Source of the DNA: Brachybacterium aquaticum
GTDB taxonomy: Bacteria > Actinomycetota > Actinomycetes > Actinomycetales > Dermabacteraceae
Length of the DNA: 64,000 bases
Assembly (NCBI RefSeq): GCF_014204755.1
Contig: NZ_JACHLZ010000001.1
Span: 186,001 to 250,000 of the forward strand
Direction: 5' to 3'
The notes beneath the pieces were generated by a model. It saw only the letters and a program-made list of their open reading frames with translations, did no database searches and was not told the origin of the DNA. A program made the translations under genes and the position numbers. Positions 38,097-64,000 of this stretch are shown piece after piece (the stretch's first letter is position 1; the number at the start of each line of letters is the position of its first letter).

Positions 38097-39674
38097 GTGA
38101 CCACGACCGAGCCGAACCGCTGGACCGACCGTCGCGTCGACGCCGTGTCCGCGCGCAAGGAGGCGTACGAGCAGCTGCGCCGCGCCAGCACCTGGCGCCT
38201 GCTCGCGGCCACGAAGGCGCCCGCGGTGCTCGCGATCCTCCAGGCCACCTTCCCCGCCGGGGACCGGCGCCTGCCCCGCAGCGAGCTCATCGCCCGCGTG
38301 GGCGCGCACCTCTCGCTGCTGCACGACGAGGATGCTGCTGTCGGCGGCGGGGTCGCCGATGCCGATCTCGGCGCGGAGGAGCTGGAGGGCCCGTCGGCCG
38401 ACGGACCCGCCGCCCGCGGCGGCCGCAGCGCCGCCGAGTACGTCGACGGCTGGGTGCGCGAGGGCTACCTGACCCGGCGCGACGACCCCCAGCGCACCGA
38501 GACCACCTTCGAGCCGTCCCCGGCCACGATCGATGCGATTCAGTTCATCGCCTCCCTCGAGGAGCACCGCCCCACCACCACCGAGTCGCGCCTGCAGCTG
38601 GTCATCCAGCAGTTCGACCGCCTCGCGCAGGAGACCGAGACCGATCGCGACGTGCGCCTGGCGGACCTGCAGCGTCGCCGGGAGCGGATCGAGCAGGAGA
38701 TCCGCGAGCTCGCCGAGGGCGAGCTCATGCTCCCCAGCACCGAGGCGTCGGTGGACCGGCTGCGGGACATCCTGCAGATCGCTGCGGAGCTGTCCGGCGA
38801 CTTCCTCCAGTACCGCGAGGACCTGCGCGCCGTCGACCTGCACCTGCGCGAGCAGATCCTCTCCCCGGAGGGCTCGCGCGGCGAGATCCTCGAGCAGCTG
38901 CTGGCGGGCGACGACCTGCTGGGCCAGTCCACGGTGGGCCGCACCTTCACTGCGTTCTTCCGGATGCTCAACGACCCGGTCCAGACCCGCAGCACCCAGG
39001 AGCTCGTGGACCGGCTGCTGGAGCGAGACTTCTCCCGCTCCCTCTCCCGCGACGAGCGCGAGCGCCTCGCCAACGTGTTCAGCGACCTCTACGAGCCGGC
39101 GCAGGAGGTGCTGGACGTCAAGACCGAGCTGTACCGCTCGCTCGCGCGCTTCGTCCGCTCCCAGGACTTCCGCCAGCACCGCGTGCTGCTCGAGGCGCTC
39201 CAGGAGGCCCAGGGCCTTGCACTCGCCCAGAAGGACGAGGTGCCCACCCGCACCCCGTTCCCGCTGGAGCTGGACCTCTCGCGCGTGCAGATCGGCTCGG
39301 TCTCCCAGCACCGCCTGAAGGACCCCACCGACCCCGGCGCCCCCGCCGAGGCCGAGGTCCACGACGCCACGACGCTGTCCGTCGAGGTGCTGCAGGACCT
39401 GGTGCGCACCAACGACATCGACATCGTGGGCCTCACCTCCCACGTCAACGACGTGCGCGGCACCTCCGGCCAGGCCTCGATCGGCGACGTGCTGCGGGCG
39501 CGGCCTGCGGAGCAGGGGCTCGCCAGCGTCATCGGTCTGATGTTCCTGGCCACCAACCATGCCCAGGCCCGCGAGGGGTCTACGGAGATCGTCACCTGGC
39601 GCGAGCTGGACGGCAACGACTACGCGGCCCGAGTGCCTGCCTTCTACTTCCTCGAGGACGTGCCGGTGGACTGA
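38097..39674 (+). CDS. jetA: DUF3375 protein, Wadjet subunit JetA (MksF-like kleisin)
   Basis: 525 aa. The DUF3375 family is the JetA/MksF kleisin subunit of Wadjet, an SMC-like complex that extrudes and helps cleave circular plasmids. It is alpha-helical: [28 protein letters not shown] at the start, the LSLLHDED winged-helix region, a long charged coiled coil ([20 protein letters not shown], about 185-205), the FFRMLNDP segment and the end [21 protein letters not shown]. An Ala/Gly-rich insert follows residue 80. GTG start right after a -10. It is not next to jetB or jetC: 2.6 kb and 22.8 kb separate their starts. Its stop overlaps the convergent repair gene by 31 nt. Confidence 0.85.
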
Positions 39675-40081
39675 GGGGCCGGAGGCTCCTCCGCCGTCCC
39701 GAGCTGGTCAGCCTCGAGCTCGTCAGTCTCGAGCTCTGCGAGCGCGGGCGCCGCGTCGGTGCGCAACCGCTCGAGGTCCGCGCCGAAGTCCTTCATCCGG
39801 CAGCCGCGCCCGTGCGGCGCGACCGCGATCCCCTCCTCGTCCCAGTGGGGACGGGCCCGCTCCAGCAACGGGTGGTCGCCCGACGCGCTCGTCACCCGCC
39901 ACCACGGCACGCCCGCGCCCCAGGTGCGCAGGATGCGACCGACGAGTCGGGGGCCGACGCCGACCACCGCGCCGACCTCGCCGTAGGCGGCGACGCGTCC
40001 CGGCGGGATCGCCTCGACCACGCGCAGCACCCGCTCGACCGTGAGGTCGTCCATGCGGGTGCGGGGTGCGGGATCGGCCAT
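39644..40081 (-). CDS. alkyltransferase-like (ATL) DNA-repair protein
   Basis: 145 aa. It has the DNA-binding domain of the MGMT/Ogt family (IPPGRVAAYGEVGAVVGVGPRLVGRIL, a helix-turn-helix), but the active-site PCHR is PWWRV (59-63), with Trp60 at the cysteine position. ATL proteins bind O6-alkylguanine and flag it for nucleotide excision repair instead of removing the alkyl group. The C-terminal ~35 residues are acidic and disordered. The ATG at 40081 follows a CAGACT hexamer by 7 nt, again leaderless-like. The 3' end overlaps jetA on the other strand. Confidence 0.9.
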   Translation of the reverse strand: MADPAPRTRMDDLTVERVLRVVEAIPPGRVAAYGEVGAVVGVGPRLVGRILRTWGAGVPWWRVTSASGDHPLLERARPHWDEEGIAVAPHGRGCRMKDFGADLERLRTDAAPALAELETDELEADQLGTAEEPPAPQSTGTSSRK

Positions 40082-40099
40082 GCGCGCCAGTCTGGCACG

Positions 40100-40139
40100 G
40101 GGACGGCCCGGGACCCTCGTGAGGGTCCCGGGCCGTCCC
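40100..40139 (-). terminator. perfect 19-bp inverted repeat, terminator
   Basis: Arms at 40100-40118 and 40121-40139 are exact complements (GGGACGGCCCGGGACCC with its mirror) around a GT centre. It lies between the stop of the leftward low-complexity membrane protein and the promoter of the ATL gene, so it most likely ends the former. The strongest hairpin in the window. Confidence 0.75.
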
Positions 40140-40182
40140 GGAATGCGTGCGCGCTGCCCGATGAGGGGCGGTCGCGCGCAGC

Positions 40183-62339: not shown

Positions 62340-62369
62340 ACTATATCAAGGTGAACGGAAGGTGAACGG
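62340..62369 (-). promoter_or_regulatory. PHO-box-like 11-nt direct repeats and -10 of the GlfT2-like operon
   Basis: On the minus strand two identical 11-nt units, each CCGTTCACCTT (62369-62359 and 62358-62348), contain the exact GTTCACC core of streptomycete PHO-box repeat units. The hexamer TATAGT (62345-62340) begins 4 nt after the second core, so the box replaces the -35. PhoP-dependent control by phosphate is the likely function. The leader to the ATG at 62183 would be ~150 nt. The jetC promoter lies 44 nt away on the other strand. Confidence 0.6.
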
Positions 62370-62412
62370 GGGGAGACGCGTCGCGCGAGTCGTGGGACCG
62401 CCCGCTCCTTAG

Positions 62413-62418
62413 TACGCT
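62413..62418 (+). promoter_or_regulatory. -10 of jetC, probably leaderless
   Basis: TACGCT ends 6 nt before the GTG at 62425 with no ribosome site, matching the arrangement at jetA and jetB. Confidence 0.5.
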
Positions 62419-62424
62419 TCCCGG

Positions 62425-64000
62425 GTGACCACCACGAGCGAGACCGCACAGGACGGACTGGACCTGCCCGGCATCACCGCCGACGTGCGGGAGACGGGCG
62501 CGGCGACCGATCCCGACCATCCGCACCCCGGGCAGTGGCGCCTGAACCATGTGCAGGTCTCCAACTGGGGCACCTTCCACGGCACCCACGACCTGGCGAT
62601 CTCGTCGAAGGGCTTCTTCCTCACCGGCGGGCCCGGCACCGGCAAGTCCACGCTCCTGGATGCGATCAGCGCCCTGCTCACCCCGCCGCGCACCCTGCAG
62701 TTCAACGCCGCCGCGTCCGACGCCGGCCCGAACCGCTCCAAGTACCGCCGCACCGTGGCCAGCTACGTGCGCGGCGCCTGGGCCATGCACTACGACCAGG
62801 CCACCGGTGAGTTCAGCCAGGAGGTGCTGCGCGAGAAGACCACCCTGTCGGTGCTCACCCTGCGCTACGGCGACGGCATGGGCGGCACCGTCCAACTCTC
62901 GCGCCTGCTGCTGCTCCACGCCGGCCACTCCGCGGACAGCGACGTCAAGAGCCTCTACGTCATCGCGCGCAAGCCCCTGGACGTCACCGACCTGCGCCAG
63001 TTCGTCTCCACCCAGATCGAGGGCAAGGCGCTCGAGGCCGCCCACCCCGGCACCGAGACCTTCCGCCAGTTCCGGGAGTACCGCGCCGCCTTCTGCCAGA
63101 TCCTCGGGATCCCGGACGAGAAGGCGCTGGGCCTGCTGCACAAGATCCAGTCCGCCAAGGAGCTCGGTGACGTCAACGCCCTCCTGCGCGACTACATGCT
63201 CGACCAGCCGCGCACCTTCGAGCTGGCCGACCAGGCCCTCGCCAACTTCCACAACCTCTCCGAGGTGTACGAGGCGCTGGTGACCGCCCGCGAGCAGCGC
63301 GACCTGCTGCGCGGCCTGCGCACCAACCACGAGGACTGGTCCGCGATGCGCGAGCGCGGCGGGGAGCTCGTGGACCGCAGGGCCGACATCGACGTGTTCG
63401 CCGCCCAGCACCTGGTGCGCCTGCTCGGGGACGAGACCGGGCGCCTCCAGCTCGAGCGCGACTCCCTCACCGCCCAGCAGCGCCGCCTCACCCAGGACGT
63501 GGCCGAGGCCCGCGCCGACCTCGCCCAGCTCAAGGAGCAGCGCCGCCGTGCCGGCGGCGGCGAGATCGACGACTGGAAGCAGCAGATCGCCGGCCTCGAG
63601 GTCGAGCGGGAGCGGCGCCGCGAGCGCGGCACCGAGTTCGCCGCCCAGCTGGCCACCGTCGAGCTGCGCACCCCGGCGGGGGAGGACATGTTCCTGGCCC
63701 TGCAGCGCGAGGTCGCGCAGCTGCGCGAGTCGCTCGAGCAGGAGGAGAAGGGTGCCGACGCCGCCCGCTGGGAGGCCGAGGCCGCCGTGCGCGAGCTCGG
63801 CGCGGCCCTCCAGCGCACCCGCGAGGAGCTCGCCTCCCTCACCTCCCGCGCCTCCAACCTCCACTCCGAGGACGTGGCCCTGCGCGACCACATCGCCGCC
63901 GAGGTGGGCATCGCTCCCACCGAGCTGCCCTTCGCCGCGGAGCTGCTGCAGGTCCGCACCGGCGAGGAGGAGTGGACCGCCGCGGCCGAGCAGGCGCTGC
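62425..64000 (+). CDS. jetC: Wadjet ATPase subunit JetC (MksB/MukB-like), N-terminal part, truncated by window edge
   Basis: 525 codons are present with no stop, and the family is ~1,100 aa. The head domain begins with LNHVQVSNWGTFHGTHDLAIS and the Walker A TGGPGTGKSTLLDAISALL (Lys74), followed by LQFNAAASDAG, SYVRGAWAMHYDQ and the LRDYMLDQPRTF region, all typical of COG4913/JetC proteins. From ~330 a long coiled coil starts (RLQLERDSLTAQQRRLTQD, EARADLAQLKEQRRRAGG). SbcC/RecN-type ATPases are the alternative, but the N-W-G-x-F-H opening is characteristic. With jetA and jetB in the same window it should be the motor of Wadjet. The nuclease jetD is not visible and may lie further right. Confidence 0.88.
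   Translation, partial: MTTTSETAQDGLDLPGITADVRETGAATDPDHPHPGQWRLNHVQVSNWGTFHGTHDLAISSKGFFLTGGPGTGKSTLLDAISALLTPPRTLQFNAAASDAGPNRSKYRRTVASYVRGAWAMHYDQATGEFSQEVLREKTTLSVLTLRYGDGMGGTVQLSRLLLLHAGHSADSDVKSLYVIARKPLDVTDLRQFVSTQIEGKALEAAHPGTETFRQFREYRAAFCQILGIPDEKALGLLHKIQSAKELGDVNALLRDYMLDQPRTFELADQALANFHNLSEVYEALVTAREQRDLLRGLRTNHEDWSAMRERGGELVDRRADIDVFAAQHLVRLLGDETGRLQLERDSLTAQQRRLTQDVAEARADLAQLKEQRRRAGGGEIDDWKQQIAGLEVERERRRERGTEFAAQLATVELRTPAGEDMFLALQREVAQLRESLEQEEKGADAARWEAEAAVRELGAALQRTREELASLTSRASNLHSEDVALRDHIAAEVGIAPTELPFAAELLQVRTGEEEWTAAAEQAL

Follow-up and report, generated by a model that had tools for sequence, protein, structure and literature searches.

In Wadjet systems (type I: JetABCD, also MksBEFG), JetABC is regarded as an SMC motor which extrudes DNA loops and switches on the nuclease JetD when the circle is small. 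MukBEF and several other members of the Wadjet group have no JetD, as described in a survey of the group (PMC7617805). MukBEF of enterobacteria is described as a nuclease-less complex of this group which replaces SMC-ScpAB as the housekeeping condensin (PMC10586767, PMC7617805), and MksBEF and SMC of Pseudomonas aeruginosa are described as jointly organizing and segregating the chromosome (PMC7485682). According to a speculation in one review (PMC10586767), defence complexes of the Wadjet type gave rise to MukBEF and likely also to MksBEF. Here we analysed the jetA, jetB and jetC genes in a stretch of 64,000 nucleotides from Brachybacterium aquaticum (C1:186001-250000 of a single-contig genome of 3.45 Mb, G000), which we call the window. 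Gene content across the family Dermabacteraceae makes it quite likely that its JetABC is a nuclease-less SMC-kleisin-KITE housekeeping condensin in place of SMC-ScpAB.

The comparison covered 47 Dermabacteraceae genomes, and the nuclease-less JetABC clade found in them is called the core below. Like Wadjet type I, the core has a homologous kleisin, KITE protein and SMC-like ATPase, encoded in the same order on one strand. Unlike Wadjet type I, it comes without JetD, its genes are dispersed, it forms one clade present in 46 of the 47 genomes, and no SMC-ScpAB was detected with it. It resembles MukBEF as a nuclease-less SMC complex of the Wadjet group that would replace SMC-ScpAB, but it is a separate actinobacterial lineage, its operon is broken up and its condensin function is a prediction. 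MukBEF was not in our trees, where the nearest neighbours of the core were mostly JetD-bearing Wadjets. The role in chromosome organization and segregation described for MksBEF of P. aeruginosa (PMC10586767, PMC7485682) is predicted for the core as well; MksBEF coexists with SMC there, whereas SMC-ScpAB was not found with the core. SMC-ScpAB itself shares the presumed role and the SMC, kleisin and KITE make-up of a condensin, but its proteins belong to different families, and its smc locus (in B. aquaticum) and scpAB locus (in another genus, G041) were empty.

The subunit genes and the promoter-like hexamers before them are as follows, in window coordinates.

38083..38088, + strand: -10 hexamer TAGACT, 8 nt before the jetA GTG (leaderless start)
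38097..39674, + strand: jetA, kleisin, DUF3375, MksF-like; GTG start; profile matches
42232..42237, + strand: -10 hexamer TACAGT, 8 nt before the jetB GTG
42246..42917, + strand: jetB, KITE protein, DUF4194, MksE-like; GTG start; profile matches
62413..62418, + strand: -10 hexamer TACGCT, 6 nt before the jetC GTG
62425..64000, + strand: jetC, SMC-like ATPase, MksB-like, first 525 of 1135 codons; GTG start; continues to C1:251832

An earlier note on this DNA had named the products as DUF3375 JetA, DUF4194 JetB and a COG4913-type JetC, and profile searches bore out all three families. JetA matched DUF3375 with 454.6 bits (E 5.4e-136) and the PADLOC profile JetA1 with 501.9 bits. JetB matched DUF4194 with 141.7 bits and JetB1 with 188.6 bits, and was above the Pfam MksE cut-off (32.2 vs 27 bits). 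Searched alone, the window JetB gave no match to solved JetB chains; a profile built from 20 JetBs, including that of the window, matched them with a best E of 3.4e-17. The part of JetC inside the window matched JetC1 with 532.3 bits, and solved JetC chains were matched with up to 257 bits. The gene extends 1832 bases beyond the window end and encodes 1135 amino acids. Its closest relative among named records is JetC of Brachybacterium paraconglomeratum (94% over 1-1132), and the 33 named loci belong to Brachybacterium, Dermabacter, Helcobacillus, two genus-less Dermabacteraceae and one metagenome-assembled genome labelled Actinomycetales. The intergenic gaps are 2571 bp between jetA and jetB and 19507 bp between jetB and jetC, in agreement with the 2.6 and 19.5 kb, + strand and canonical order reported before; the hexamer described 6-8 nt before each GTG was also found at all three genes. 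A profile search of the genome gave one DUF3375 match, one DUF4194 match and one full-length JetC, leaving no second contiguous jetABCD of the kind that the earlier note saw as a possible refutation. Two further JetC-profile matches were short P-loop stretches only, and a P-loop protein at C1:131.7 kb with a weak JetC-profile match was rejected as SbcC-like, not SMC.

The JetA, JetB and JetC profiles each matched in all 47 family genomes. In genomes with two sets, the core was told from the canonical set by its place and, for fetched loci, by the tree as well. The single genome without the core (G044, the sole genome of its genus in the sample) carries a distant canonical jetABCD only. Several draft genomes have the core genes on different contigs, and in G029 the core jetA is a C-terminal piece at the contig start. 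In the JetC tree, which retained 85 of 95 gathered rows and 19 of 29 core rows, the core was one clade with a Shimodaira-Hasegawa-like approximate likelihood-ratio (SH-aLRT) support of 100, short tips and grouping by genus. A concatenated tree of JetA, JetB and JetC (50 chosen rows, mixture model) also recovered the core as a single clade (100), which forms an unresolved fork with two other clades, most of whose members have JetD. Both trees were midpoint-rooted, and the JetC tree has long branches, that of the core included; on the simplest reading the ancestor would have carried JetD.

SMC-ScpAB showed the opposite distribution. ScpA was matched in one of the 47 genomes (E 6.8e-43), which is G044, the genome without core JetABC, and was not found in any of the 46 core-bearing genomes; ScpB was not searched for. 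The same search matched 9 of 14 control genomes, Corynebacterium glutamicum among them. The SMC hinge was matched in 248 of 274 genomes of the order outside the family vs 1 of 23 sampled family genomes, where genomes missing from the match list counted as hinge-negative (negatives were listed in part, and the totals agree).

The loci themselves were also read. In a genome of another family (G103), the order is ileS, other genes, ndk, smc, ftsY, amtB, glnB, glnD and ffh, with an smc of 1186 amino acids (hinge 80.8 bits) and 4064 bp from ndk to ftsY. The neighbours stand in the same order in the window genome (L228), where ndk and ftsY are 515 bp apart with no smc between them; ndk, smc and ftsY were checked with Pfam, and amtB, glnB, glnD, ileS and ffh were named by eye. 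The only frame between ndk and ftsY there is short and would encode a small membrane-like peptide (L228 11053-11569). The usual actinobacterial order at the other locus is parA-scpA-scpB-rluB. G044 shows the parA-scpA part of it (xerD, other genes, parA, and scpA with 147.5 bits). In the single-contig genome of another genus (G041), xerD and parA come immediately before the pseudouridine synthase gene rluB, which shares 4 bp with the parA frame. Beyond rluB lie a frame that by eye resembles tyrA and a fusion of cmk and der, and neither scpA nor scpB was found at this parA-rluB locus. Judged from these searches and loci, SMC-ScpAB appears to be gone from the core-bearing genomes of the family.

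The earlier suggestion of a housekeeping condensin-like complex therefore stands as the most likely reading, with SMC-ScpAB apparently lost and the function deduced from distribution and loss. It is also fairly likely that the whole family swapped SMC-ScpAB for a domesticated Wadjet stripped of its nuclease. The complex would consist of two JetC with JetA and JetB, in the Wadjet/MukBEF/MksBEF group, and the JetD nuclease would have been lost from an ancestral Wadjet. JetABC would load on the chromosome, where the intact ATPase of JetC would extrude DNA loops that do not end in cleavage; since JetD is absent, JetABC should retain the motor and lose the cut. On this reading, the three proteins would still form a complex that folds and segregates the chromosome, and JetABC would make up for the lost SMC-ScpAB.

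Several observations weigh against this conclusion. The 46 genomes probably reflect one ancestral replacement and not 46 independent tests. The hinge sample covers 23 of the 47 family genomes, with the other 24 (G044-G046 among them) outside it, and the sole match in it (G019, E 3.2e-4) is above the family cut-off. The smc locus was read in B. aquaticum only, and the scpAB locus in G041 only. In G016, which has a canonical jetABCD as well, the core jetA is split into two pieces separated by about 2.6 kb (C1:2971330-2975340), as if interrupted by an insertion; in G027 the core jetB and jetC and the canonical jetD are broken, possibly by assembly errors. JetD loss alone does not make a replacement, because JetD-less DUF3375 loci elsewhere coexist with SMC. 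Outside the family, 26 of the 274 genomes gave no hinge match, 6 of them with DUF3375 and 20 without; either the hinge search has misses or a condensin can be dispensable. In C. glutamicum, an smc deletion is described as having no apparent growth phenotype, and some actinobacteria may tolerate the loss of a condensin (PMC11898615).

The deletable smc of C. glutamicum and the 20 genomes with neither hinge match nor DUF3375 would also suit an alternative in which SMC-ScpAB could be lost because it was not needed, while JetABC persists for some other task on the chromosome or in repair, not as a substitute. However, the sole family genome without the core, G044, keeps ScpA, and all three subunits persist in nearly every genome and are constrained where measured. 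We consider this alternative unlikely.

The window genome has a single JetD_C (DUF2220) match of 63 residues (28.1 bits, C1:2651664-2651846; L004 1501-1683, L205 10665-10847) in a 74-aa frame, about 340 bp beyond a GmrSD-like restriction gene, and the profile search gave no JetD_N (DUF3322) match in this genome. A genome-wide check for jetD, proposed earlier, thus found no two-domain JetD, and the description of the genes as a working Wadjet anti-plasmid system had to be abandoned, as the nuclease is gone from the genome apart from this decayed fragment. The fragment suggests that this genome may formerly have had a canonical Wadjet at another place. Across the family, JetD_C matched in 8 and JetD_N in 7 of the 47 genomes. 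Both domains were present in six (G005, G016, G018, G027, G035 and G044), each time beside a canonical jetABC set, and a two-domain JetD was not found in the other 41; B. aquaticum and G023 had JetD_C only, and G025 had JetD_N only. The canonical operons of G005 (C22) and G016 (C1; L084 and L088) encode an identical canonical JetC in two congeners, and that of G016 has some 2.6 kb of extra DNA between jetC and jetD.

JetABC without JetD also occurs outside the family, where DUF3375 of any kind was matched in 100 of the 274 genomes. Our outside sample comprised 111 DUF3375 loci, the matches of G163 and G280 below the cut-off being left out. Of these loci, 51 had no JetD match within 12 kb, and 10 of the 51 had JetD elsewhere in the genome. 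We fetched 40 of the 51 and 20 of the 60 loci with JetD. The jetA, jetB and jetC matches were mutually adjacent in all 40, one of which (G164) lies on a contig ending inside jetC, where JetD is unreadable. The SMC hinge was kept in 50 of the 51 genomes without nearby JetD, the exception being G162, and this rules out that every JetD-less JetABC replaces SMC. Nuclease-less JetABC is not rare, and within our sample only Dermabacteraceae couples it to a general loss of SMC-ScpAB. As a side observation, JetD-less jetABC is common in other families of the order (L109-L148), nearly always together with the SMC hinge, and nine such loci (L129-L133, L138-L141), spread over five genera of a single family, have the same upstream gene family, which suggests core status there.

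An anti-plasmid system could in principle work without JetD, by sequestering or compacting plasmids or through an unrecognised nuclease, and both the assignment of the subunits to Wadjet type I families and the 51 of 111 outside loci without nearby JetD would agree with it. However, a distribution as wide as 46 of 47 genomes does not resemble that of a defence system, and plasmid restriction in Bacillus subtilis is described as needing all four subunits (PMC10586767). No candidate JetD replacement was found beside jetC when downstream genes of the fetched loci were clustered by BLASTP, from which diverged families can escape. Outside the family, no cluster recurred downstream in more than 3 of the 40 fetched loci without nearby JetD, and the idea of a replacement effector was rejected. 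The commonest gene downstream of the core jetC (9 of 15 loci) encodes a CshA-type surface protein, which marks the right flank. We regard JetD-less defence as very improbable. A JetD-docking motif of JetB was also considered as a marker of JetD loss. The N-terminal LFxGDxG motif is missing from the core JetB, but also from most JetD-bearing loci among L151-L159, and many loci that have no JetD nearby retain it; it could not be matched to the published IFDR motif. The motif was not a clean marker, being absent with JetD and present without it.

It is hardly credible that the set is an intact Wadjet which is merely dispersed, with its JetD at another place in the genome. A two-domain JetD is indeed carried by five of the 46 core genomes (five of the six that have one), but it stands beside its own canonical jetABC, whose clade is not that of the core (the concatenated tree included four of these five), and the window genome has the decayed fragment only.

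How the genes came apart was addressed by comparing gene order, with gaps measured between profile matches and not gene ends. In the 42 genomes where jetA and jetB share a contig, jetA always precedes jetB on the same strand, with gaps of 154 bp to 72.8 kb; jetB precedes jetC on the same strand in 38 of 38 such genomes, with gaps of 126 bp to 37.1 kb. The proposed comparison with sister genomes thus showed a constant order and strand with variable gaps. In G045 and G046 the three genes are contiguous without JetD, in G038-G041 and G043 jetB adjoins jetC, and in the remaining genomes all measured gaps are open, the smallest (576 bp) being filled by one gene. The contiguous locus of G045 has a tRNA-guanine transglycosylase upstream and a CshA-type surface protein, a LytR_C protein and a GH20 hexosaminidase downstream. 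Relatives of the same four genes surround the dispersed set of the window in the same order and orientation, the downstream ones at window-equivalent positions 68390-72355 with 31, 38 and 58% identity to G045. A contiguous locus between the same flanks argues that this is an operon at one address which was split by insertion in place, and not a set of independently placed genes. The earlier note had left the two possibilities side by side; insertion with separate putative promoters is favoured by the shared flanks and by the -10 boxes at the separated genes, and the view that the subunits were always independently placed fails on the two genomes that hold them contiguously between these flanks.

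The boxes are consensus matches in sequence, searched as TANNNT 4-10 nt before an in-frame start within about 210 nt. Of the core loci, 42 of 43 had the jetA box, compared with 20 of 60 outside the family and none of the 6 canonical family loci. The jetB box was present in 40 of 42 core loci, with 4 of the 40 lying 120-150 nt before the conserved domain and thus less certain, and in 0 of 60 outside and 0 of 6 canonical loci. For jetC the counts were 20 of 30, 1 of 60 and 0 of 6. Some genomes are counted twice in the core entries (six for jetA, three for jetB, two for jetC); per genome, the jetC box was found in 20 of 28. The hexamers exceed chance, because the jetB box occurs in 40 of 42 core loci vs none of the 60 in other families. 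The jetC box tracks separation from jetB (20 of 20 vs 0 of 7 adjoining). The 20 genomes with it include 18 with a B-C gap of at least 1361 bp and 2 with jetB on another contig, and the 8 without it include 7 with jetC adjoining jetB (gap at most 240 bp) and 1 with a contig starting at the gene. The jetB box is already present in the contiguous loci of G045 and G046, which suggests that an internal jetB promoter predated the A-B split.

We also estimated the ratio of non-synonymous to synonymous substitution rates (dN/dS) between the window and four congeners. The values were 0.12-0.19 for jetA, 0.03-0.14 for jetB and 0.12-0.22 for jetC; two spacer genes gave 0.30 and 0.32 in one pair, and three canonical jetABC sets of Brachybacterium gave 0.11-0.36, overlapping the core range. 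The Walker A, signature and Walker B patterns were found in 29 of 29 core JetC rows (28 genomes, one counted twice, that of the window included); of the 66 other rows, the signature and Walker B patterns, which are narrow, hit just 8 and 20, and they were uninformative there. The broken operon and the interrupted jetA of G016 might suggest relics or chance survivors without joint function, but dN/dS of 0.03-0.22 in the four comparisons, ATPase motifs in every core row and a promoter-like box at the separated genes make this extremely improbable.

If the condensin reading is true, a housekeeping condensin was born from a defence system outside the MukBEF lineage, and Dermabacteraceae would organize their chromosomes without SMC-ScpAB. 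The contiguous jetABC would then be a surviving intermediate, and the separated subunits with their own leaderless promoters would represent an escape from operon control. The steps visible are a canonical jetABCD, a contiguous jetABC without JetD, jetB and jetC joined, and all three apart, and the transition from defence to housekeeping becomes testable in Brachybacterium and its kin. The survey of the Wadjet group is described as retaining only consecutive, co-directional matches (PMC7617805), a rule which would skip the dispersed loci of Dermabacteraceae. Our literature search found nothing on Wadjet with Brachybacterium, and the titles and abstract openings of the papers listed reported no replacement of SMC-ScpAB in Dermabacteraceae; prior notice in the 2011 MksBEF or 2022 Wadjet structure papers is possible.

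The flanking and spacer genes of the window are as follows.

30842..32071, + strand: tRNA-guanine transglycosylase, upstream anchor of the locus and also of the contiguous jetABC in G045 (83.9% identity)
39644..40081, - strand: MGMT-like DNA-binding-domain protein, A-B spacer
40183..42015, - strand: low-complexity protein with an N-terminal membrane-like segment, A-B spacer; no Pfam match
43156..48189, + strand: iron-siderophore uptake genes, B-C spacer (binding protein, FecCD, ABC-ATPase fused to a siderophore-interacting protein)
49385..62183, both strands: cell-surface polymer genes, B-C spacer; G+C 0.66-0.70 over 50-60 kb

The repair gene described earlier in the A-B spacer is present, and was identified as the MGMT-like DNA-binding-domain protein; five further family loci that were fetched (L069, L075, L080, L081 and L082) have homologues between jetA and jetB. 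The low-complexity protein next to it has 610 amino acids and several short tandem repeats. Relatives of the ABC-ATPase/siderophore-interacting fusion are also found between jetB and jetC in L080-L083. The polymer block, which is likely a later insertion between jetB and jetC, contains a CDP-glycerol glycerophosphotransferase, two IspD-type cytidylyltransferases, a short-chain dehydrogenase/reductase, an ABC ATPase and a glycosyltransferase. The two cytidylyltransferases lie on opposite strands, and the G+C content of the block is below that of most of the window.

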